From Defluviitaleaceae bacterium (GTDB taxonomy: Bacteria > Bacillota > Clostridia > Lachnospirales > WQUN01): DNA of 60,258 nucleotides. Positions 22,130-36,289 of the stretch are shown here, in pieces. Within the stretch, counting starts at the first letter, position 1, and each line of letters begins with the position of its first letter. The translations under genes and the position numbers were made by a program. The notes under the pieces were generated by a model, which made no database searches, had not been told where the DNA came from, and saw only the letters and a list, made by a program, of their open reading frames with translations. The DNA is taken from contig WRDO01000018.1 of NCBI GenBank assembly GCA_009779755.1, positions 1-60,258 on the forward strand, given 5' to 3'.

Positions 22130-24340
22130 ATGAAGAAGCTCTTGTTTCTAGCACTGTTACTGGCTGCGGCAATGTTTGCGCTTGCGGCATGTAACAGGGG
22201 CGGCAATGAAGGGGACGGACCCGCCGGGCCTGTGGCAACGGCAACACCCGCACCCACCGCAACCCCCGCGCCCTCGTTGGCACCCACACCGCCTCCGATA
22301 CCTGAAGGATCCCGTGCGCACATTGTGGCGCAAGCCGCCTCAATGGTACCCGAGCCCGGCAGCTACATCGTAAACGCGACGGGTACCCGCGTGGACCAAA
22401 ACATTTTGGGCGGATGGACGAACCCGACCCCCAACGCCCACGCAAGGGTATTGATGGGCGGACTCGGAACCATGGACCGCAACCACTTTAACGACTGGTT
22501 CCCCAACCCCATCGTAATGGTAGACGGTGCATGGCCCGAAATCAGGGACAATGCGGACGGTTCCCGCACCTACACCTTCACCATCTACACCGAAAACAGA
22601 TTCTCTGACGGTACCTTTGTTACCGCCGCCCATTATGCGGGTGGTTGGGCATTGGGTCTCAGCCCCCAATGGACTGCTTTAGTACCTTCAAATAACAGCG
22701 GATTGCATGTGCAAGGCCGCACCCCGTTCCTTAACGGCGATGCCGCTACGCTGACGGGTGTGCGCCTGTATGACAGCGTGTGCGCCGAGGGCCGCCCCAA
22801 CAGGTTCTCCGTAACCGTAATCGCCGAAGAATTGCCCAACGTATGGGAAGCCTCCATGTATATGGGCCAAGGCCCCTCCCCGCTGCATATGTACGGCGCG
22901 GATGTACGTGACAACGGCGACGGCGTATTCGTGGTCGCAGCCGACGGCGGCGAGCTTACCTTCGAAGCCCTCAGGCAAATCGTTGAAGGCGGCGAACCCT
23001 TCTTCGTGCAATTCATTGACGAACACGGCGAACCCATGTACAGGGCCGACGGCGAACCGGACGGCACCATGGTCAGCGACGGTGTAAGATACAGACCCAC
23101 CGTTTTCTCCGGGCCTTATATGTTTGACAGCATTGACGTGGGTAACGGCGTAATGACCTTGCTTGCCAACCCCCACTTCCCCGGTACTTGGGACGGTTTC
23201 CGCCCCCGTATCGAACGCGTTATCTGGCGTTTTACCCCCGCTACTCTTATGGTTGACGCATTGGCTGCCGGGGAAGCGCACCTGATGCTCGCCGTAACCG
23301 ACGGTCAAGCGACGGAAAACGCATTCCTCACCTTGGTGGACGGCGGAACCCACTCCTTCCACGGCTATGACGACCACGGCCAACGTTTGATCCAATTCCA
23401 CACCGACACAGGCCCCACCCAGTTCAGGGAAGTACGCCAAGCCATTTCCTATATGGTTGACCGCGACAGGTACAACGCGGAAGTGGGACGCGGATATTCC
23501 GTCGTAGCCCACGGCCCTTGGGGACCCGCCTGGTGGTGGTACCAAGAAGCCGCGGACAGGGATTTGTATGACCGTGTGACCATGTACAGCTTAAACCTTG
23601 ACCGTGCCATCCAACTGCTGGAAGAAGGCGGCTGGAACTATAACGCCGACGGCACACCCTATGTAGGCCCCGGTATTGCTAACGGCGTCCGTCACAAATG
23701 GGTGGACGAATGGCATTACGGAACGGATGACGACGGCAATACCGTAAGGTTTATCTATGAAATAAACGATGACGGAACCCGCGGAAGACCCTTGGAAAGC
23801 AATCGGGTATACACCGGCGAACGCGTGCTTATGCCCTTGGTCATCAACTGGGTAGTAGGCACCGCAGCCAACCCCGGACGCGACTCATTGGAACGCTTCC
23901 TGTTTGAGCATATGGCTCACTGCGGCGGGCTGCTCGTACAAGAGCGCAGCGACCGTTGGGGTGCGATATTGCAAGGCGGTTACCGTGAAGCCCAACGCTT
24001 TGAAATGATTTACCTGGGCGTGGGTATGGCGGTTACTTGGGCACCGTGGTTGCTTATGTCTTTGGAATGGATCCCGCAAAGCAACTGGGGCCAAGTAGAC
24101 AGCGCACTCACCCGCGAATTGTCCGACCGTTTCCGTGTGCTTGATATCACCAACCCGGAAGGTTATGACGCCTTTATCGAAGCCTTTATCGACTATATGG
24201 AACACCTGACCTTCGAAGCCTACACCCTTCCCATGCGGATAGCGACGGTTCATGACTTCATCCCCGTTAACTTGGGCGGATGGTTTACAACCGGCTTGTG
24301 GAACTTCTCCGAGGCGGTAACAAGGGCATACTGGCGTTAA
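22130..24340 (+). CDS. Oligopeptide ABC transporter substrate-binding lipoprotein (family 5)
   Basis: This 736-residue lipoprotein has a signal peptide KKLLFLALLLAAAMFALAA and lipobox Cys21. A Thr/Ala/Pro linker of about 35 residues leads to a family 5 binding domain: EIRDNADGSRTYTFTIYT with SDGTFVTAAHYAGGW early, SYMVDRDRYNAEVGRGY later, and a C-terminal lobe. Family members deliver peptides or other small solutes to Opp/Dpp permeases. It is about 200 residues longer than OppA or DppA. GAGAGGAG precedes the start. A stem-loop separates it from the permease genes, consistent with higher expression of the binding protein. Substrate unknown. Confidence 0.9.
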   Translation: MKKLLFLALLLAAAMFALAACNRGGNEGDGPAGPVATATPAPTATPAPSLAPTPPPIPEGSRAHIVAQAASMVPEPGSYIVNATGTRVDQNILGGWTNPTPNAHARVLMGGLGTMDRNHFNDWFPNPIVMVDGAWPEIRDNADGSRTYTFTIYTENRFSDGTFVTAAHYAGGWALGLSPQWTALVPSNNSGLHVQGRTPFLNGDAATLTGVRLYDSVCAEGRPNRFSVTVIAEELPNVWEASMYMGQGPSPLHMYGADVRDNGDGVFVVAADGGELTFEALRQIVEGGEPFFVQFIDEHGEPMYRADGEPDGTMVSDGVRYRPTVFSGPYMFDSIDVGNGVMTLLANPHFPGTWDGFRPRIERVIWRFTPATLMVDALAAGEAHLMLAVTDGQATENAFLTLVDGGTHSFHGYDDHGQRLIQFHTDTGPTQFREVRQAISYMVDRDRYNAEVGRGYSVVAHGPWGPAWWWYQEAADRDLYDRVTMYSLNLDRAIQLLEEGGWNYNADGTPYVGPGIANGVRHKWVDEWHYGTDDDGNTVRFIYEINDDGTRGRPLESNRVYTGERVLMPLVINWVVGTAANPGRDSLERFLFEHMAHCGGLLVQERSDRWGAILQGGYREAQRFEMIYLGVGMAVTWAPWLLMSLEWIPQSNWGQVDSALTRELSDRFRVLDITNPEGYDAFIEAFIDYMEHLTFEAYTLPMRIATVHDFIPVNLGGWFTTGLWNFSEAVTRAYWR

Positions 24341-25435: not shown

Positions 25436-27274
25436 ATGGATGACAAAAAAGAAATAAAAGCCAAAAAGAAATCCTTTTTCGGCATGTTGATGAGTATGCT
25501 GTTCGGCGAACGGCTGGGCGGCAAGATGACCCTGATGGAAGAAGAGCAGGTACAAAGCCCTTTCAAAACCATCGTGAGGGAATTTTTCCGCAGAAAGCTG
25601 ACCATTGTGGGGCTGATCGGGTTCTTCTCCATGCTGCTTGCCAGTACGATTATCCCCTTTTTCTTCCCGCTGAACGTATCCGATACCGACATCGGGCAGT
25701 TTAACCAGCCGCCTTCCATGAATATGATGCGTATCCCCCGGGCAATACGGGGTGATATCGTCATGATGAGTGCCGGCCCGGGGTACGGCGTGGGGGTAAC
25801 CTCCGATAACGTGGTGCATGTGTGGGGGACGGTAAACACCGTTGCCGCGCCCTTGCTTAACCCTCCCCAGCCCGGCAGGCCCATCAAGCATGTTTCCGCG
25901 GGCGAATACCACGCTTTGGTGGTTACGGAGGACGGGCATGTGTATGTATGGGGCAACGAAAGCCCTGCATTCGAAATCGCCAATGTACCCCCCGAGATAC
26001 AAGGCAGGGTAGTGACCGCAACGGCGGGGATGCGTATATCGGTGGCGATTACCGACGACGGGCAGCTCCATGCCTGGGGCGGTATCACGCTGGACAGACG
26101 GGACACGGCGGCTACGGGCAGGGTGCCCAGAGGGGCCGTACCGGTGCAGGTTGAGGCCAATTCCCTTACCTTCGGTGTGCTGACCGATGACGGGCACGTA
26201 CACGTATTGATAAGAACCCCCAGAGGCATACGCGACGTACCGGAGGAAATACAAGGCCGCATCATTGATTTATCCATGTCGGACGACAATGTTATCGCTT
26301 TGCTGGACGACAATACCGTAGTGGTATGGGGGAACCCCATTAACGTTGACCTCTACGATATACCCGCCGAAATCCAAGGCAGGGTAGTTAACGTAAACGC
26401 GGGCCGCGGGCATTTTACGGTTTTGCTGGACAATGGCAGCGTGGTCGCTTGGGGCAGAAATGAACACGGGCGTACCAATGTCCCGAATTTGAGCAACGTC
26501 GTTTCCCTTGAGGTTGCCGGGGACCATAACTACGCCATACTTGCGGACGGCAGTATACAGACATGGGGCTTAAGGGGTTTCCCCTTCGGTACGGACGCAC
26601 AAGGACGCTGCGTATTTACACGCCTTTGGCACGCGGGCAGGTATTCGCTGTTGATCGGTATGGTAGCCGTAATGGTACAAGGTACGATAGGGCTTTTGTT
26701 CGGCGGATTGTCGGGTTTCTACGGCGGTAAAGTGGATATGTTCCTTATGCGCTTCGCCGAAGTGGTGAGCTCCCTTCCTTTCCTTCCGATCGCTTTGATA
26801 TTGAATTTCCGTTTCAGGCATGTTTTCGGCCCGATTGGGGGGATGATGTTCCTGATGGCTATATTGGGTGTACTGAGCTGGCCCGGGCTGATGCGCCTGG
26901 TGCGCGCACAGATATTGCAAGCAAGGGGATCGGAGTATGTGCTTGCCGCGCAGGCGTTGGGCGTAAAACAGTTAAAATTGATTTTCAGGCACATTATGCC
27001 TAACGTGGCTTCCACGGCGATCGTATTGCTTACCCTTGCCTTGGCCACGTCCATGCTGACCGAGACAGCGATGTCGTTTATCGGCTTCGGCGTAAGTGAG
27101 CCTACGCCCACTTGGGGCAATATGCTTAACGGTGCCAATAATTCCATCGTATTGCGACAGCAGTGGTGGCGTTGGGTATTCCCCGCCATATCGTTGGTTA
27201 CGGTTGCCATCAGCATCAATCTTATCGGGGACGGCCTGCGTGAAGCTACCGACCCAAGGGCGCAGGGGAGGTAA
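25436..27274 (+). CDS. oppC: ABC importer permease, OppC/DppC type, with inserted RCC1-like beta-propeller
   Basis: This 612-residue protein is about twice the family length. Residues 1-80 are a normal OppC N-terminus with TM1 (about 55-78). Residues about 105-379 hold seven repeats of the RCC1 type (pattern: strand, AG..., A/V-xx-DG-xVxxWG), for example VSAGEYHALVVTEDGHVYVW and VNAGRGHFTVLLDNGSVVAW; the fourth is degenerate. The permease resumes at FPFGTDAQGRCVFTR, the position of the family motif GTDxxGRDxxxR (here Asp becomes Cys). The remaining spans and the EAA loop AAQALGVKQLKLIFRHIMPN follow. Topology places the propeller outside the membrane. RCC1 repeats mediate protein contacts, so the domain may dock the binding protein, the nearby RCC1 lipoprotein or a ligand. 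No frameshift is seen and the frame is continuous. Confidence 0.93.
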   Translation: MDDKKEIKAKKKSFFGMLMSMLFGERLGGKMTLMEEEQVQSPFKTIVREFFRRKLTIVGLIGFFSMLLASTIIPFFFPLNVSDTDIGQFNQPPSMNMMRIPRAIRGDIVMMSAGPGYGVGVTSDNVVHVWGTVNTVAAPLLNPPQPGRPIKHVSAGEYHALVVTEDGHVYVWGNESPAFEIANVPPEIQGRVVTATAGMRISVAITDDGQLHAWGGITLDRRDTAATGRVPRGAVPVQVEANSLTFGVLTDDGHVHVLIRTPRGIRDVPEEIQGRIIDLSMSDDNVIALLDDNTVVVWGNPINVDLYDIPAEIQGRVVNVNAGRGHFTVLLDNGSVVAWGRNEHGRTNVPNLSNVVSLEVAGDHNYAILADGSIQTWGLRGFPFGTDAQGRCVFTRLWHAGRYSLLIGMVAVMVQGTIGLLFGGLSGFYGGKVDMFLMRFAEVVSSLPFLPIALILNFRFRHVFGPIGGMMFLMAILGVLSWPGLMRLVRAQILQARGSEYVLAAQALGVKQLKLIFRHIMPNVASTAIVLLTLALATSMLTETAMSFIGFGVSEPTPTWGNMLNGANNSIVLRQQWWRWVFPAISLVTVAISINLIGDGLREATDPRAQGR

Positions 27275-27279
27275 AGGGA

Positions 27280-28335
27280 ATGGACCTGAAGATTAAAGTG
27301 AATACCGTAAAAGAAAATGCCGACCCGGTTCCCGCAGGTAAGCAGGAGGATGTTTTACTCGAGCTTAAAAACCTGCATACCTATTTCGAAACCCGCCGAG
27401 GTACGGTCAAGGCCGTCAACGGGGTTAACTATTCGGTGGAAAAAGGTAAGACCCTCGGTATCGTAGGGGAGAGCGGCAGCGGAAAGTCCGTTTCCGCCAT
27501 GAGTATATTAAATCTGCTGGACGGTAACGGCAGGGTGGTGGAAGGGAATATTTTCTTTAAGGACAAGGACATGGTGGGCCTTAACCGCAGGGAGCTGGCC
27601 AAGATACGCGGGAACGAAATCTCCGTTATCTTCCAAGAGCCCATGACCAGCCTTAACCCGATTTTTACCGTACGCAGGCAAATCGGCGAATCCTTCCAAG
27701 TCCACCAAGGCATGAGCAAAAGACAAGCCTATGCGGAATCCGTCAAGATGCTTGAGGACGTACGGATTCCCGACGCGGAACAGGTGTCGCGGCGTTATCC
27801 GTTTATGCTTTCCGGCGGTATGCGCCAGCGGGTCATGATTGCGATGGCGCTGGCGTGTAAACCCGACTTGTTGATCGCCGACGAACCGACAACAGCTTTG
27901 GACGTAACCATACAGGCGCAGATATTAAAGCTCATGAATGACCTGAAAAAGGAAAAGGGTACGGCGATTATGTTCATTACCCACGACCTTGGGGTAATCA
28001 ACGAAATGGCGGACGACGTTGCGGTCATGTATTGCGGGCAGGTGGTGGAGCAAGCCCCGGTACGGGTCATCTTCGATGATTCGGTCTATTCCCATCCCTA
28101 CACGGAGGGTTTGATGACCTCGATACCCCGTTTGGACACGCCCGTCGGCGCAAAGCTGGACGTTATCGACGGCGCGGTGCCCCATCCCTTGGACTTACCC
28201 GTGGGTTGCAAATTCGCACCCCGTTGCAAATACGCAACCGACCAATGCCATAAGCATGAACCCGAACTGATAAAGGTCGCCGACGACCAACTCGTACGTT
28301 GTTTTTATCCTGAAAAGGGGGCCCGCAAACAATGA
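27280..28335 (+). CDS. oppD: Oligopeptide ABC transporter ATPase, OppD/DppD type
   Basis: This 351-residue ATPase has Walker A GESGSGKS (63-70), Q-loop SVIFQEPMTSLNP (from 115), ABC signature LSGGMRQRV (177-185) and Walker B LLIADEPTTALD (197-208). The C-terminal oligopeptide-transport extension carries the cysteine pattern CKFAPRCKYATDQC...C. Related Opp/Dpp ATPases have been reported to hold an iron-sulfur cluster at these positions. It pairs with the OppF-like protein to power the two permeases. GGGAGG precedes the ATG. Its stop overlaps the next start in ATGA. Confidence 0.95.
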   Translation: MDLKIKVNTVKENADPVPAGKQEDVLLELKNLHTYFETRRGTVKAVNGVNYSVEKGKTLGIVGESGSGKSVSAMSILNLLDGNGRVVEGNIFFKDKDMVGLNRRELAKIRGNEISVIFQEPMTSLNPIFTVRRQIGESFQVHQGMSKRQAYAESVKMLEDVRIPDAEQVSRRYPFMLSGGMRQRVMIAMALACKPDLLIADEPTTALDVTIQAQILKLMNDLKKEKGTAIMFITHDLGVINEMADDVAVMYCGQVVEQAPVRVIFDDSVYSHPYTEGLMTSIPRLDTPVGAKLDVIDGAVPHPLDLPVGCKFAPRCKYATDQCHKHEPELIKVADDQLVRCFYPEKGARKQ

Positions 28336-29903
28336 CGGACATAAAAACGGAAAAAAAGCCGCTGATCAGTATAAGGAACCTAAAGCAATACTTTCCCATC
28401 AGAGGCAGGCGCAACATGTTTGTACGCGCCAACGACGGTGTCAATTTGGATATCTACGAAGGGGAGACGATGGGCGTAGTAGGGGAATCCGGCTGCGGAA
28501 AGTCCACCCTTGGGCGGGTATTGGTACAACTGTACAGGCAAACCGACGGCGAAACGATATACTACGGCCAAAACATAGACGATATCGTCCCCCGTTACGT
28601 GTTGGATATCTATAACCGGCTGGAACGGAAGGTTGTCGAAACGAAGATATTAACGGAGGAATCCAAAAAGCAGGAAGAGGAGTACCAAGCCGTTAAGGCG
28701 GAGTACAACGCGGCGGCGGACAAGGAAAAGCTGAGGGCAAAATATTTCGCAAAACGAAACGAACGCAACGAAGCCCGTAAAAAAGCCAACAGCGAATACT
28801 TAGCCGTTGTACGCCTTATCGGCGGCTTTTATGTGGCCAAAAAAGAGGATTACAACGACATTATGCTTGCGCTCAAAATGCATTTCTATGCGGCGAGGGC
28901 TTTGTTTATCCTCAACATGGCGATATTAAAGGTTTCCGTAAAGGCGGAAGAAATCAAATATAAAATCGACAACAATCTTTTTGGCGCCAACGAAAGCAGG
29001 TACAAAAGCCTGATGAAAAAAGTCGAGCATATGAAAGGCCCCGAAAAGGATAAATACATGGCCGAAAAAGCCAAAACCCAAGGAGCCATCGACGCCATCC
29101 GCGCAAGGTATGCCGACGACGAGGAATTCCAACGATACGAGGGGATGCGGGACAACGGTATCGACCTTGCCCGTTTGACCTATAACGAAATGCGCTATTT
29201 GCGTAAGGATTTACAGCTTATTTTCCAAGACCCGTATTCGTCGTTAAACCCGAGGCTTTCCATCGGGCAGATTATTTCCGAAGGGGCCATCACCCACAAA
29301 AAATTCGTAAAAAACAACGAACGTATGCAAAAGTACACCATGCGTATCATGGAGGATTGCGGCCTTGCCCCCTATATGATACACCGCTACCCCCACCAGT
29401 TTTCCGGCGGTCAGCGGCAGCGCATCGGGATTGCACGCGCCTTAAGCACGGAGCCGAAATTCGTCGTCTGCGACGAAGCGGTATCGGCACTGGACGTAAG
29501 CATACAATCACAGATCATCAACCTGTTAAAGGATTTGAAGGACAAGGAAAACCTGACGTATATGTTCATTTCCCATGACCTTTCGGTGGTGAAGTATATC
29601 TCCGACCGTATCGCGGTTATGTATTTGGGCGTTATCGTCGAGCTGTGTACCTCCGAGGAACTGTTTGCCAACCCGTTGCACCCGTATACCAAGGCCCTGC
29701 TTTCCGCCATCCCCACAACCAATGCGGAAAAAGGGGAAATGATTATCCTTGAGGGAGATATCCCAAGCCCCATCAAACCGCCGCCGGGTTGCAAATTTAA
29801 CACCCGTTGCAAGGATTGTATGGAGATTTGTTTATCCGTGGTGCCTGAATGGCGGGAACAAAGGCCGGGCCACTTTGTGGCTTGCCACTTGTACGAAAAT
29901 TAG
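28332..29903 (+). CDS. oppF: Oligopeptide ABC transporter ATPase, OppF type, with about 200-residue helical insertion
   Basis: This 523-residue protein has Walker A GESGCGKS (51-58), signature FSGGQRQRIG (357-366), Walker B VVCDEAVSALD (378-388) and the C-terminal cysteine motif CKFNTRCKDCMEIC. In ordinary OppF about 43 residues separate the Walker A lysine from the Q-loop glutamine; here it is about 240 (Lys57 to Gln299 in LIFQDP). The extra roughly 200 residues (about 85-285) are highly charged and helical, with coiled-coil segments (EESKKQEEEYQAVKAEY) and a less polar middle (about 185-200). The insertion keeps the frame and all ATPase motifs, so the protein is likely active. Confidence 0.93.
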   Translation: MTDIKTEKKPLISIRNLKQYFPIRGRRNMFVRANDGVNLDIYEGETMGVVGESGCGKSTLGRVLVQLYRQTDGETIYYGQNIDDIVPRYVLDIYNRLERKVVETKILTEESKKQEEEYQAVKAEYNAAADKEKLRAKYFAKRNERNEARKKANSEYLAVVRLIGGFYVAKKEDYNDIMLALKMHFYAARALFILNMAILKVSVKAEEIKYKIDNNLFGANESRYKSLMKKVEHMKGPEKDKYMAEKAKTQGAIDAIRARYADDEEFQRYEGMRDNGIDLARLTYNEMRYLRKDLQLIFQDPYSSLNPRLSIGQIISEGAITHKKFVKNNERMQKYTMRIMEDCGLAPYMIHRYPHQFSGGQRQRIGIARALSTEPKFVVCDEAVSALDVSIQSQIINLLKDLKDKENLTYMFISHDLSVVKYISDRIAVMYLGVIVELCTSEELFANPLHPYTKALLSAIPTTNAEKGEMIILEGDIPSPIKPPPGCKFNTRCKDCMEICLSVVPEWREQRPGHFVACHLYEN

Positions 29904-30137: not shown

Positions 30138-31463
30138 ATGAGGCTCCGTTGGTATTTGCTTCGCACACATATAGGGATATTTATTACGCGGTACAGAAGG
30201 GCGTTAAGCCGTTTGTATTGGGCGTGCGTGACAGTTATATGCGTTACGCTGATTGCCATACCCCTAACCTTGGCGATACGCAGCCCCCATGTACGGCTGC
30301 CCCATATCCACGGGATATCCCCCGAGGTTAACATGCTTATACAGGAATGGAACCGCGTCGCGGCACAATACAGGCGGGAGGCCAGCCGTTTGGGCGGGTT
30401 TACCACACTGGTTAACAATATGATGGCAAACTATCCTTTTTTTGATATTTTCGTTGAGCGTACGGGTTTGGATTATTTGGAGATTGCCATCGGGCTGCAC
30501 GAGGAGCTGTCGGAAACGGCGCGTTACAACCCCGCCCCCGATTTTTTCGAAAATTTTGCGCGGGAACGGTTTATCGATATGTTTGAGGGTTTGGGGGATG
30601 TTCAATTAGGCGGGGAAATCAGGGGTATCATCCCTTGGATATCGGAGCCGTACTTTATGGGGCATTACGACTGGCGTTTCTACGACGACCGATATGATAT
30701 AGAGGTATTGGAAGGCAATATCACCACCGAAACGTTTGCCGAAGAGGGTATAACGTATCTGCGTATCAACCACTTTTTGCCCAAGGGTTATGAGCCGATA
30801 AGCCGCCATCCCTATTGGCGTTTCGATTTTGACGCGGACAAGGAATATTTAACGGATTTTTTCAACGGGCTTTATGAATACGAACATTTGGTGATTGACA
30901 TACGGGGGATCAATGCCGGATTTGGGGATTATTTCCTGCCCTTGGTGCTGGAGCTCCTTGTCAACGAAGTGATAAGAAAGCAGTTTTACGCCTTCCAAAC
31001 GGAAGGAGGGTTCGCGCGCCGCGTAAGCGAGGCGTACCGAACATGGTACGGCTTTAACCCGCAGTTGACGCGGAGCGCTTTGTTAACCCAAGAATTTACG
31101 TATGAAATACCCGAAGCCTTGACGGAGGGTTTTCCCATAGTCATTACGGCACGGCCTGCCGAAGAAAACAGACCCGTGTTTAACGGGCAAATATGGCTGC
31201 TGACCGATTCGAATAACTTTACGGGGCCAAACCCCATGTACTTACAAACCGCAAGGGATGCGGGCTTTACGATTATCTATGAGGAGACCCCCCAACCCGA
31301 GGGCTGGGAAACCTCCTTTATGCGACTTAATTACGGAGGCTTGGTATTGCGGTTAAACCCGCTGTATTTCACAAACGATGAGGGCAAATCCTTTGAAGGG
31401 ATGGGTGCGTTTTACGACTACCGCTTGGACGGAGAATGGATGGATATAATCAAAAAGGGGTGA
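30138..31463 (+). CDS. Membrane-anchored S41-peptidase-like protein, catalytic serine apparently missing
   Basis: This 441-residue protein has a basic N-terminus, one TM (about 28-47) and an extracytoplasmic domain resembling C-terminal processing (S41) proteases. ITYLRINHF and HLVIDIRGINAGFGDYFLP match the strands YxRIxxF and LxxDLRxNxGG. IWLLTDSNNFTGPNPMYLQ falls where S41 enzymes carry the nucleophile (SxAE). There the serine-alanine pair is replaced by Thr-Gly, so proteolysis is doubtful and a peptide-binding role is possible. No PDZ domain is obvious. It is packed between the small membrane protein and the RCC1 lipoprotein. Confidence 0.55.
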   Translation: MRLRWYLLRTHIGIFITRYRRALSRLYWACVTVICVTLIAIPLTLAIRSPHVRLPHIHGISPEVNMLIQEWNRVAAQYRREASRLGGFTTLVNNMMANYPFFDIFVERTGLDYLEIAIGLHEELSETARYNPAPDFFENFARERFIDMFEGLGDVQLGGEIRGIIPWISEPYFMGHYDWRFYDDRYDIEVLEGNITTETFAEEGITYLRINHFLPKGYEPISRHPYWRFDFDADKEYLTDFFNGLYEYEHLVIDIRGINAGFGDYFLPLVLELLVNEVIRKQFYAFQTEGGFARRVSEAYRTWYGFNPQLTRSALLTQEFTYEIPEALTEGFPIVITARPAEENRPVFNGQIWLLTDSNNFTGPNPMYLQTARDAGFTIIYEETPQPEGWETSFMRLNYGGLVLRLNPLYFTNDEGKSFEGMGAFYDYRLDGEWMDIIKKG

Positions 31464-31468
31464 GAGGC

Positions 31469-32950
31469 GTGAAAAGGAGTATTTTGTTGATAATCATGAC
31501 GGTTATCCTTTTATTGCTTGCCGCTTGCACAGGCGGCGGGCTTAGTGACGGGGATTATCCCCTACCCGAAGAAACGCCGATACCTACGCCAACGCCGACA
31601 CCCACACCTACCCCGGCATTGCCGCTCCCCGCTAATCCGCCGCCCGTGCTGATACCCGGCAGGGTGCAAGCCACGCCGGAGCCGGAACCCGCGGCGCTTA
31701 TCCCCCAACCGTCGGAGGCCCTTACAGTACCCGTCAACCGCCGTACGATAAGTGCCGGTAAAAGTTTTTCCACCGTCATAACCGAGGACGGCGGTATGTG
31801 GATGTGGGGTGCGCTTCCCATGCCGGATGGGTTTACGTTCTTTTTCCATGTATTTTATGCCGTGCTTGATGGTACGCTCTTTCTTTGGGACGCGGCGGGG
31901 AATGCCTTTATACCGGATCCCAATATGATGAGCGGCGACGGCACCCATTATTTTTTATTTTGCGCCGAAACAGGCGTACAAAGAAATATTAACACCCTGC
32001 GTATCGAAGACGCCGAGGGCAATCCTTTTACCCTAAACGATATGCCGCAGATGGCTTTGATAAACGCTTTTCTCGTCCCCGGTCAAGTAGCGGAAAACGC
32101 CTTTTCCGTATACGTCGATATCATCCATTCGTCGGTTTATATGATAGACGAGGCGGGTACCTTATATTGGGTGGCATTTAACCATAACGTGGAGGATGTC
32201 CACCCAATGGAGGAAAACGTGGCGGATTTTATGACCGTTCAGTTCAGCAGGAATATCGGGCCCGGGCCGTTAAATAATACCCGATATTTCAGCGCCGTGT
32301 TGCATACCGACGGTTCCTTTTATCTGGATGGGGACCCGGACGGCAGAACGAGACTCGTTGACGCGAATATCATCGCCATGGACTACGGGACAACCCATGC
32401 CTTGTTTCTCGCTTACAACAACCAGCTTTGGGCCATGGGCTCGGGCAGTGCCGTAGGCATACCCAATCATATAGGTGCGGCACCCCCCGCGTGGGTTATG
32501 GACGGCGTTGTCCAAATCGCGGCGGGCAGTGTACACAGCGTTGCGCTGACAGAGGAAGGCAGGTTGTATACTTGGGGGATGAATACCCGCGGCCAGTTGG
32601 GTACGGGTGACTTCACCAATCAAGTGCGGCCCGCTTTTATCATGGATAATGTAGTCGCGATATCCGCCGGGGATTTGTTTACCATGGCGATAACCGCGGA
32701 CGGCAATTTGTGGGGCTGGGGATGCAACCGATACGGGCAAATAGGTAACCCCGCCCTTGTGACGTTCGCGCCGATGCTGATCATGGAGGATGTGGTTGCT
32801 GTTTCCGCCGGGTACGGTCATACATTGGCGCTTACCTCCGACGGAACCTTGTGGGCTTGGGGGAATAACGTAAACGGCCAATTGGGCGACGGCACCCGTA
32901 ATAACAGCCGCGAACCCATCATGGTCATGAAGGGGGTAAAACTACCTTAA
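31469..32950 (+). CDS. RCC1-repeat lipoprotein
   Basis: This 493-residue protein begins with a lipoprotein signal (KRSILLIIMTVILLLLAAC, Cys20) and a Thr-Pro linker (PTPTPTPTPTP, from about residue 37). An RCC1-type propeller region from about 85 to the end follows. The last three repeats are textbook, for example IAAGSVHSVALTEEGRLYTW and VSAGYGHTLALTSDGTLWAW with the GQLGxG motif; the first ones are degenerate and two may be lost. I chose the GTG start because AGGGGTGAG lies just upstream and it gives a clean signal peptide; the gap to the preceding gene is 5 bases. It is a likely partner of the RCC1-bearing permease. Confidence 0.85.
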   Translation: MKRSILLIIMTVILLLLAACTGGGLSDGDYPLPEETPIPTPTPTPTPTPALPLPANPPPVLIPGRVQATPEPEPAALIPQPSEALTVPVNRRTISAGKSFSTVITEDGGMWMWGALPMPDGFTFFFHVFYAVLDGTLFLWDAAGNAFIPDPNMMSGDGTHYFLFCAETGVQRNINTLRIEDAEGNPFTLNDMPQMALINAFLVPGQVAENAFSVYVDIIHSSVYMIDEAGTLYWVAFNHNVEDVHPMEENVADFMTVQFSRNIGPGPLNNTRYFSAVLHTDGSFYLDGDPDGRTRLVDANIIAMDYGTTHALFLAYNNQLWAMGSGSAVGIPNHIGAAPPAWVMDGVVQIAAGSVHSVALTEEGRLYTWGMNTRGQLGTGDFTNQVRPAFIMDNVVAISAGDLFTMAITADGNLWGWGCNRYGQIGNPALVTFAPMLIMEDVVAVSAGYGHTLALTSDGTLWAWGNNVNGQLGDGTRNNSREPIMVMKGVKLP

Positions 32951-33019: not shown

Positions 33020-36000
33020 GTGAAAATCAATATTTTTTTGAAGTCCGTGTTGCGTCAGCCCATACGGACTTTTGTTTTATCCTTACTTATTGCGGCGGCT
33101 TCGTTTGCCTTGGTGGCAAGGGTTACGGAGTACATCGTCGTAAGCAATGAAATCAAAAGGATAGAAGGGTACTACCGATCCATCGGTATACTTTCGCCTT
33201 TGTATTTCAACGATTTTACCGGCTATCACGATGTAAGACGGGCAGCGGAGCTCATCGAAGGGAGCCGTCATGTATCGATTTCCGATACCCGCCGCTTTAC
33301 ACAGGGTGTAATGGCGGATCGGCTCAACATCGTGACCCAAAGCAACGTTAATTTTTTCCATCCCACGCTGCACGGCTTGGACATGGAGCTGATGGATCAT
33401 TATTTCGTCGGTTATCTGATGATGGAGCCGCGGTTCACACGTTCGGGGGGTGTCCCGATGCTGTGGGTTGGCATCAACGTTGTGGAGCTTGTTTTGGGTG
33501 ACCCCAGATCCTTGATTTCGGGTGATCGAACCTTTGTCAACGAACGGGGACAGGTAGCCACCGTACAAAGCAGGCAGCACATGTACCTGACGCTGACCGA
33601 GGAAGAAGGGGAACTGTACGAGCGAGGGCTTTGGAGCCCCTTTGACGGCTTGCGGATTGCCGAACATGCCCTATTCCGGGCTACGGCCGCGGATATGGAC
33701 AGGGGCGATTGGGGTACTGTATGGGGGCATTTTATCTGGTACCTCCTGCCCTTTAACGAGGATCGTGTTTTTTATTCAAGCCCCACGGACGTGGATATCA
33801 TCGAAAACTTTGAGATGCATTCGCAAAACCTTTCCTCCGTTACCGTCATCGACACAAAGGACATGACGGCCATCCCCCGCTTTACCAACAACCGCACAAC
33901 CCGCTTGCTGGATACCATGCTGTACCCCGCGGGGCGTTGGCTTACCCATGAGGATTATCTGACGGGCAATCGGGTAGCCGTGGTTTCGGCCCAGTTGGCC
34001 ATACGGCGCAACCTGCATGTGGGGGAAACCTTTACGATTACCCTGCGGGACAATCCCCGCCCCAATTGGATTGACCGCTCCGTTGTTGACCCGGACCCTT
34101 GGGCAAGCGGTATCGAGCATTGGTGGGATAACCACCCTGCCGGCTGGTGGAGCATGATCGATTCCACCCACGACAATTGGCGGGACTTTCCGACTTACGA
34201 GTTGGAGTTGGAAGTGGTGGGGGTATTTTGGAACATACCGCACTTTATCCACAACTTTACCTCGACGGAAATATTCATCCCCGCGGGTTTGATGCCCGAG
34301 GGCTTCGGTTGGGACGATGCGCCGCTGCTTTCGGCGATGTACAGCTTTGTACTGGATTCGCCCCGTTCCGAACGGCTCTTTATACGGGAAAACCGTGCGG
34401 CTTTGGCCGACTTGGGTTTTGCCCTGTTGTTTTTGCCAAACGGCTTTGAAGCCCTTGCCGCCGCCACCGACCCCATCCGTACCTCCATTACCGTAAACCT
34501 CGGCATCTTTACCGGGGTGTCGGTATTGGTTATGTTGCTGGTTATCTTCTTATATATTCGGCAATGGCGCAGGAACGTAGCCATCGCCAAGGCGTTGGGC
34601 GTGCCTTCGTCAAGGGTGCTCGCCCAGCTTTTTACGCCCGTTATTTATATATGGATACCCGCCGTGATTGTCGGCTCCGTGGTGGGTTGGTCCTTTGCGC
34701 TGGGGGAAGCGGAAGCCACCCTTGGGGGCTTCGCCGAACAATATGAAGTATATACGGAGGCGTTGATCGGGACGGTATGGCTGGCGGTGATGGTCGGGGC
34801 AATTTCGTTGACTATTTTTACGGGGATATACCTTGCGGGTTTTTCCTTGGTACGCCGCCCGGTGCTTGAACAATTACAAGGCAACGTTCAAAGGCGCCGC
34901 AGGGAAAAAGTAATCGAATCGGGTATCGTACCCGAAAACTTTACCGTCGAAGGTATTTCCATACCGCAGGAGCCGCTGACCAAAACCCGTATCGGCGTCA
35001 TGTATTCCGTATTGCGGCACGGTTATCGGCATATCGTCCGTTCCCCGGTAAAAACGGGGCTGGCGTTTATCGTCGCCATGCTTTTTGTGCTTTCGTTGGC
35101 TTGGCTTAACGATACGATTTATTTTACGGAAAGCGAAGTCGAACGGCTGTGGAATGAAACCGTAATCACCGCCGAAATCGTGCGTATCATCGATCCCTTC
35201 GACATCGATGAAGTGAATCTCCCTTGGCAAGCGCATATTGCCCCGTCCAGTTGGGATTCGGTTTTGGCTACGGGTTTTGTGACGGAATCCTACAGGGAGG
35301 CGTTATCCGTAGGACATTCGCAATATCTGTTGGGAATCAGCCATTTGGAGGGTTTTATCGAAGAAAATACGAAAACCCCGTTGGATGAACAGCTTGGGAT
35401 TTTCTGCGATGACATCGTTATCGAATACTCCCCCGGCTTCGGCGCGGAGGACTTTGTGTTCACACCGGATATGCCTACCCCCATTTTCGTCCAGCGGAGC
35501 TATTTGGAGGATTTCGAGGTTACCATCGGTGAAACCATTACCTTTATGGTTTATGACATAAATAATATATTGCAGGTAAATTATGCGACGATTATCGGCG
35601 CATTTGACGGCGGCCTGCGCCGGGGGGTCAACCGCTTTGACCTGCATGTATTCGTGATGCCTATATCCGCTTTGTATCACCACGCGCAAGGCCTTTGGCT
35701 CTTTGATGAAGGAAACACGGAATGGGGTATGTTTGGGATGCAAACAGGGCGCCCCACGTATCTGACGGCGCGTTTCGTATCAGACCCCACCCGCAACCGT
35801 GAGCTTGCCCAACTGCGCGAGCTGACCGAAATCGTCCTGGCACAAAACAATTTGGGCAGGTATGTGGGACCGGTACCCCTCGAAATGCTGTTGGACGACG
35901 ACGTTATCGAAAACGTTATCCAACCCATGGAGCGTAACCTGTCCCTGCTGCGTGTCCTGTACCCCATCGCCATCGGCTCCGCTTTTGTGCTGGCGTTGGG

Positions 36001-36289
36001 CTTGTCATTATTAATCATGATGCAAAACGCCAAAAACGCCGCCATCATGCGGGTGCTGGGCAAGGCGAAGGGTGCGTCACGGGCGGCCCTTTGTTTGGAA
36101 CAGTTGGTTGTGTGTTTGATCGGGGTGATTATGGGCTTTGCCGCCATGCTGTTGGTTGGCGTAACCTTTGGCGTGACACCCCTTGCTTTGGCGGGGGTTT
36201 ACTTTGCCGGAGCGGCCGTCGGTTCGCTTGTCGGGGCGTTTGTCATCAGCGCAAAGTCCCCGATGGAATTGCTTCAAGTGCGTGAATAG
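33020..36289 (+). CDS. MacB/FtsX-family ABC permease
   Basis: This 1089-residue membrane protein has an N-terminal TM (SVLRQPIRTFVLSLLIAAAS), a large extracytoplasmic domain (about 45-480), then a three-span FtsX block (from about 495: SITVNLGIFTGVSVLVMLLVIF). A second TM (FIVAMLFVLSLAWL), a second extracytoplasmic domain and a C-terminal FtsX block follow. This is the two-FtsX architecture of MacB-like mechanotransmission or lipoprotein/peptide export complexes. GGAGG precedes a GTG start. The cognate ATPase follows after 13 bases. It may export peptides or drive an envelope enzyme; the substrate is unknown. Confidence 0.85.
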   Translation: MKINIFLKSVLRQPIRTFVLSLLIAAASFALVARVTEYIVVSNEIKRIEGYYRSIGILSPLYFNDFTGYHDVRRAAELIEGSRHVSISDTRRFTQGVMADRLNIVTQSNVNFFHPTLHGLDMELMDHYFVGYLMMEPRFTRSGGVPMLWVGINVVELVLGDPRSLISGDRTFVNERGQVATVQSRQHMYLTLTEEEGELYERGLWSPFDGLRIAEHALFRATAADMDRGDWGTVWGHFIWYLLPFNEDRVFYSSPTDVDIIENFEMHSQNLSSVTVIDTKDMTAIPRFTNNRTTRLLDTMLYPAGRWLTHEDYLTGNRVAVVSAQLAIRRNLHVGETFTITLRDNPRPNWIDRSVVDPDPWASGIEHWWDNHPAGWWSMIDSTHDNWRDFPTYELELEVVGVFWNIPHFIHNFTSTEIFIPAGLMPEGFGWDDAPLLSAMYSFVLDSPRSERLFIRENRAALADLGFALLFLPNGFEALAAATDPIRTSITVNLGIFTGVSVLVMLLVIFLYIRQWRRNVAIAKALGVPSSRVLAQLFTPVIYIWIPAVIVGSVVGWSFALGEAEATLGGFAEQYEVYTEALIGTVWLAVMVGAISLTIFTGIYLAGFSLVRRPVLEQLQGNVQRRRREKVIESGIVPENFTVEGISIPQEPLTKTRIGVMYSVLRHGYRHIVRSPVKTGLAFIVAMLFVLSLAWLNDTIYFTESEVERLWNETVITAEIVRIIDPFDIDEVNLPWQAHIAPSSWDSVLATGFVTESYREALSVGHSQYLLGISHLEGFIEENTKTPLDEQLGIFCDDIVIEYSPGFGAEDFVFTPDMPTPIFVQRSYLEDFEVTIGETITFMVYDINNILQVNYATIIGAFDGGLRRGVNRFDLHVFVMPISALYHHAQGLWLFDEGNTEWGMFGMQTGRPTYLTARFVSDPTRNRELAQLRELTEIVLAQNNLGRYVGPVPLEMLLDDDVIENVIQPMERNLSLLRVLYPIAIGSAFVLALGLSLLIMMQNAKNAAIMRVLGKAKGASRAALCLEQLVVCLIGVIMGFAAMLLVGVTFGVTPLALAGVYFAGAAVGSLVGAFVISAKSPMELLQVRE

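Follow-up and report, generated by a model that had tools for sequence, protein, structure and literature searches.

The OppC-type permease of a five-gene importer, encoded in a 60,258-nucleotide stretch of Defluviitaleaceae DNA (the window), carries in its first outer loop seven RCC1-type repeats that are predicted to form a complete seven-bladed propeller of the BLIP-II type. We give about an even chance to the reading in which this propeller docks the substrate-binding protein (SBP) encoded in the same operon. Type I importers usually comprise two permeases, two ATPases and an SBP gripped by small loops; here a whole propeller is found in one permease. It travels with an insert in the ATPase assigned to the same half, which would make this importer a natural system for outer-domain control of SBP docking and ATPase firing. 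The features of the operon are listed in Table 1.

Table 1. Features of the propeller-bearing importer operon in the window (positions are those of the whole stretch).
Feature	Position	Strand	Basis
Family-5 substrate-binding lipoprotein (SBP), 736 aa from the ATG at 22130, lipobox-like LAAC	22130..24340	+	Pfam SBP_bac_5; PDB profile match 9p48
OppB-type permease, 336 aa	24410..25420	+	
Permease gene of oppC type (612 aa), bearing the RCC1/BLIP-II-type propeller insert	25436..27274	+	Pfam, AlphaFold2 model, structure match
OppC_N region with TM1 (about residues 41-94)	25556..25717	+	Pfam; helix 54-76 in AlphaFold2 model
Residues 95-379: seven RCC1 repeats in the first extracytoplasmic loop, a predicted seven-bladed propeller	25718..26572	+	Repeats, model, BLIP-II match
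GTD motif and BPD_transp_1 transmembrane domain, EAA-type loop (AAQALG at 504)	26573..27271	+	
OppD-type ATPase, 351 aa, four-cysteine C-terminal motif	27280..28335	+	
OppF-type ATPase, 523 aa, with inserted segment	28332..29903	+	
OppF insert (residues 89-273), between Walker A and Q-loop, co-occurring with the propeller	28596..29150	+	

The oppC frame was open over all of its codons at the place given in the initial annotation, and the permease landmarks noted there were retained: OppC_N (residues 41-93, 33.6 bits against a cut-off of 23.9), BPD_transp_1 (residues 419-609, 105.5 bits against 26.4), the GTD motif and the EAA-type loop. The motif itself had been misread as GTDxxGRD. The OppC of the window has GTDxxGRC, and most of the aligned sequences have GRD. 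RCC1_2 matched three stretches of the protein (101.3 bits, cut-off 22), and WD40_RLD matched residues 143-378 with 93.1 bits, under its cut-off of 150. The best NCBIfam model, Opp4C (NF045476), scored 292 bits, under its curated cut-off of 350, and the protein is therefore not assigned to this equivalog. TM1 and the EAA loop, which is cytoplasmic in this family, place the propeller loop on the extracytoplasmic side.

The seven RCC1-type repeats claimed between TM1 and the GTD motif, in the first outer loop, were recovered by the repeat register and a repeat HMM. The repeats start at residues 95, 137, 179, 220, 263, 304 and 345 and are 41-43 residues long. The HMM detected seven in the window OppC and likewise in 148 of the 150 OppC entries longer than 570 aa, among which a few proteins appear twice with different ids. 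Because 48 of the 96 rows of A1 went into building the HMM, it is not independent for those rows. The two exceptions were L067, with five repeats detected, and P0044, with eleven. P0044 (876 aa, named from a Defluviitaleaceae MAG) has an insert of about 570 residues, roughly twice the usual length, which is probably two seven-bladed propellers in tandem.

Structure prediction with AlphaFold2 gave 21 strands in seven blades, a closed seven-bladed fold, as had been proposed from the repeats. The pTM of the model was 0.80, and the orientation of the propeller relative to the membrane is uncertain in it. BLIP-II was the best structural match of the propeller. In phmmer searches the same chain matched both BLIP-II (2.1e-18) and OppC (1.8e-43), which excludes a chance resemblance. 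BLIP-II is a free secreted inhibitor, whereas the propeller described here is inserted in a permease loop, and nothing points to an inhibition of beta-lactamase by it.

An assembly chimera was rejected on account of a paralogue, homologues and the even third-position GC across the insert boundaries (0.69, 0.67 and 0.65), so the initial reading of a real architecture and not an assembly join stands. The paralogue is a second propeller OppC in the same genome, on contig C5 (L001), with 72% identity over residues 34-612. The domain-architecture search showed that the combination of BPD_transp_1 and RCC1 recurs in other bacterial genomes. In the protein search 346 of the 7,996 candidates scored matched at E <= 0.001; 119 of the best 120 had both an RCC1 and a permease domain, and the remaining one, P0046, is a 441-aa piece without a permease domain. 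Such proteins are already present in domain annotation under names such as ABC transporter permease, and the databases call them simply permease. Whole-genome searches recovered the long form of OppC from three samples: the family (8 of 38 genomes, with 9 copies), the class (17 of 391) and the phylum (14 of 398). These make 36 distinct genomes in total, since the samples overlap (G000 is in all three and G097 in two); in G714 a contig end truncates the copy. For the class and the phylum, genomes of at least 80% completeness were sampled evenly, and mostly only the three best candidates per genome were scored. The phylum name, Bacillota, was taken from the names of relatives in the protein search. 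Copies in Sphaerochaeta, which may be misbinned, go by the source's own name for one cluster.

The importer was assigned to the Opp/Dpp type from Pfam and structure matches: OppB- and OppC-type permeases with BPD_transp_1, together with OppC_N, two ATPases with the oligo_HPY C-terminal region, and a family-5 SBP within the operon. As in Opp and Dpp of E. coli and M. tuberculosis, an SBP, B, C and ATPase subunits with EAA-type loops are present, and the OppC fold aligns over all 278 residues of 8z21_B. The four-cysteine C-terminal motif in D and F is a further likeness. Both ATPases (27280-29903) retain it as C-x5-C-x6-C...C; in E. coli DppD and DppF a [4Fe-4S] cluster is bound by cysteines in this arrangement (PMC12136057). 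Unlike the OppC of the window, the solved OppC/DppC chains of E. coli and M. tuberculosis are about 290-300 residues long and therefore have no propeller domain.

An SBP match was found in 33 of 37 fetched propeller neighbourhoods (34 of 38 counting the window). The four others (L002, L054, L061, L111) reach no further than OppB in that direction before the contig stops. Since an SBP beside the permeases is the usual Opp layout, seen also in 15 of 17 control loci, its presence discriminates nothing. Complete SBP, OppB, OppC and OppD genes were available in 31 of 37 loci (the window included and L002 left out), in the order SBP-B-C-D-F. L066 has two SBP genes, and at L071 the SBP adjoining OppB is split in two frames.

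Were the loop a slot for a domain that handles the SBP, propeller and SBP would be expected to evolve together, and distances among the subunits of these operons were therefore compared. Over the 31 operons the partial distance correlation was 0.44 for SBP and propeller, against 0.29 for SBP and OppB, 0.10 for SBP and OppD and 0.09 for SBP and the TMD. In partial Mantel tests, with the TMD, OppB, OppD and the OppF core as controls, r for SBP and propeller was 0.43-0.46 in the 26 operons with long OppF and 0.47-0.48 in 19 non-redundant operons; p was 0.0005 in both, which is the floor of 2,000 permutations. For L071 the nearest long SBP of the locus was used in place of the split one, and with this locus left out the value was 0.44-0.47. 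When rate-matched fast permease columns were added, a set that is part of the TMD and OppB and collinear with both, the strongest partial partner of the propeller was the SBP in 10 of 10 variants (0.29-0.45). From the side of the SBP, OppB beat the propeller as partial partner in 8 of 10 variants. The OppF insert, which evolves even faster, gave a weak partial Mantel r of 0.14-0.25 with the SBP (p 0.006-0.07). The correlation of SBP and propeller supports contact between the two, short of proof.

Among the three roles suggested initially, holding the binding protein fares best on this evidence. In the docking model the propeller would touch the SBP, hold it above the pore formed by OppB and OppC and help to position it or keep it in place through the transport cycle, in the way that MalF-P2 serves maltose-binding protein. 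MalF-P2 differs from the OppC propeller in permease position and fold. The resemblance, offered as an analogy only, is that of a large folded outer domain on one permease subunit, which in MalF-P2 contacts the SBP MalE (PMC3150292) and in OppC would do so. In E. coli Dpp, DppA is gripped by a scoop of the partner subunit in the pseudo-dimer, DppB, where it is found between TM1 and a3 (PMC12136057). By pseudo-symmetry this scoop may be the counterpart of the OppC loop.

The propeller could instead capture a substrate itself (peptide, glycan or protein) and pass it to the SBP or the pore as a second site. The best structural match, BLIP-II, is a protein binder, and the first half of the between-blade segments is the most variable part (mean 1.33 against 2.95 in strand C). 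AztD, a propeller, works with the SBP-dependent importer AztABC, but as a separate protein with zinc as ligand. Zinc can pass from AztD to the SBP AztC by direct transfer (PMC6689063). Face-specific conservation, however, showed no clear patch and no conserved surface pocket on the propeller, the top positions being mostly repeat scaffold (W, G, H), and for capture an SBP is already available in the operon. A second capture site is therefore considered unlikely.

The other unusual feature of these operons is the OppF insert. The span from the Walker A side to the Q-loop side was 157-222 residues in 24 of 25 aligned propeller operons compared to 24-25 in seven other operons, so that about 130-200 extra OppF residues are present. 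The exception, L052, has a split OppF frame; its genome (G013) nonetheless shows the insert. E. coli OppF matched on either side of the insert but not within it. A PDB profile search with the insert returned mostly coiled-coil or other helical proteins, and judged by its sequence the insert is probably helical.

An insert-only search of the family picked out 8 of 38 genomes, the very ones that have the propeller. In the class the insert matched at 5.3e-24 or better in 17 of 391 genomes, the same 17, and these strong matches start 1.2-1.5 kb downstream of the propeller gene. Nine more genomes of the class gave only partial matches to the model (3.9e-5 to 7.5e-4), as is common with coiled coils. 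Among the fetched propeller neighbourhoods, those at phylum level included, 35 of 37 had the insert against none of 17 controls; it was missing only in L001, which has no ATPases, and L102, at a contig end. At the level of genomes propeller and insert were seen only together. Since a single branch holds all propeller operons, the pairing does not represent many independent events.

In E. coli Dpp, DppC pairs with DppF (PMC12136057), and for this reason the OppF insert was assigned to the half of the transporter that carries the propeller, on which it would act. A broader and tentative reading, to which we give clearly less than an even chance, is that one half of the importer has been rebuilt on both sides of the membrane, the OppC propeller holding and gating the SBP outside and a helical arm of OppF coupling that state to the ATPase or a cytoplasmic partner, and that this forms a separate peptide-importer class across Bacillota. 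If so, it would be an outside-to-inside control line, for which no description in Opp/Dpp was present in the literature found.

The same pairing bears on a sensory role, in which an outside signal would pass from the propeller through OppC and the OppF insert to a cytoplasmic regulator. Permeases of the BceB/VraG type, with their large outer domains, provide a precedent for sensing (PMC7951975, PMC3023708), and the occurrence of propeller and insert in the same genomes and not apart, with C pairing with F in E. coli Dpp, agrees with such an arm. Against it, no sensor kinase is a regular neighbour (HATPase_c matched 2 of 113 flanking ORFs), and the distances of OppF insert and propeller barely correlate (r 0.08-0.16). 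A sensor arm is thus somewhat less probable still than a second capture site.

An unrooted tree was made from the C-terminal permease part alone. The 44 propeller rows, some from outside the class, formed one side of a branch (100/99), and 15 rows with a different insert formed another group (95/94). All 14 plain rows lay on the non-propeller side. L087 (plain, branch 4.71), placed beside the propeller rows in an earlier tree, was dropped. The different insert is seen in the OppC of L011 (1495-3240, 581 aa) and L012 (520-2196, 558 aa), where about 260-290 residues occupy the same outer loop. No Pfam domain was found in it; AlphaFold2 predicted four alpha/beta repeats (pLDDT 84.7, pTM 0.61). 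Foldseek and VIA searches matched the permease part only, and as the whole chain was used this does not imply a new fold.

In the search for relatives 7,563 of 7,999 candidates matched at E <= 0.001, plain OppC being expected among them. The best 120 (P0177-P0296) are 512-603 aa long and 92-100% covered, and some are named by the source as Blautia, Oscillospiraceae or Treponema. Like the window, the two loci combine a large insert in this loop with a large SBP upstream (833 and 873 aa). In contrast, the predicted fold is different, OppF has its ordinary length (322 and 339 aa) and the clade is separate. Since the second insert forms a separate clade, the first outer loop of OppC has received large domains at least twice. 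The initial annotation had read the architecture and the seven blades correctly but missed the paralogue, the breadth of the propeller family, the OppF insert and this other domain.

The occupation of this loop by an unrelated insert in another clade is consistent with the loop being a slot for domains that engage the SBP, as in the docking model. It could also be read as a loop that tolerates a passenger without function. For the propeller this is very improbable, as 148 of 150 entries keep seven repeats and none of the 14 plain rows falls among the propeller rows, which lie on one side of a branch.

The window's genome encodes further RCC1 proteins, on contigs C22 and C1 and, at 31436-32950, downstream of the operon; the last has a lipobox-like start and had been suggested as the docking partner of the propeller. 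Of five own-genus loci, three (the window, L049 and L050; not L048 or L052) have its gene next to the operon, and the paralogue L001 does not have it alongside. In the other neighbourhoods (22 loci, E < 1e-8) its only matches were inside the OppC propeller itself. The lipoprotein was therefore rejected as a general partner, and the suggested docking was not borne out. Another view takes the propeller for an anchor that ties the importer to the cell wall, an S-layer or another surface protein, the loop being outside and other RCC1 proteins being encoded in the genome, one of them next door. With the neighbouring lipoprotein not kept alongside the operon, and the SBP correlation left without explanation by a wall role, anchoring appears improbable.

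The paralogue lies in a second SBP-OppB-OppC(propeller) set (L001:7856-12675), next to a GH130 mannoside phosphorylase and with no OppD/OppF alongside. Only one insert-bearing OppF was found in the genome, so this set probably shares the OppD and OppF of the window.

The transported load is likely, though on weak support, to be a peptide. The best solved relatives of the SBP in the PDB profile search are named peptide binders (9p48, 2.4e-56; AppA, 2.2e-23; OppA, 1.9e-22), with nickel and haem binders among the further matches. These, and the GH130 gene next to the paralogue, count against a peptide load. By phmmer, 6 of 37 propeller loci have a peptidase M3 gene nearby, as does 1 of 17 others, which is too slight a difference for naming the substrate from neighbours. 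No dominant partner emerged among the 113 flanking ORFs (at least 180 aa, within 5 kb, contig-end frames left out) from 19 of the 37 propeller loci; Peptidase_M3, ABC_tran and BPD_transp_2 each matched 5.

No paper on RCC1 with OppC, or with an ABC transporter permease, was found in the full-text literature searched, a body without most subscription journals and without any bioRxiv preprints. Among the looser matches listed, none was by title on a propeller-permease architecture, and in a survey of propeller amplification (PMC9218822) the words permease and transporter are absent.

Within the genus, the operon is followed by a 441-aa protein (30138-31463) with no Pfam match and 41-51% identity in three relatives and 36% in a fourth. 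An FtsX-type protein of 1089 aa (33020-36289) is also encoded after the operon in the own-genus loci.
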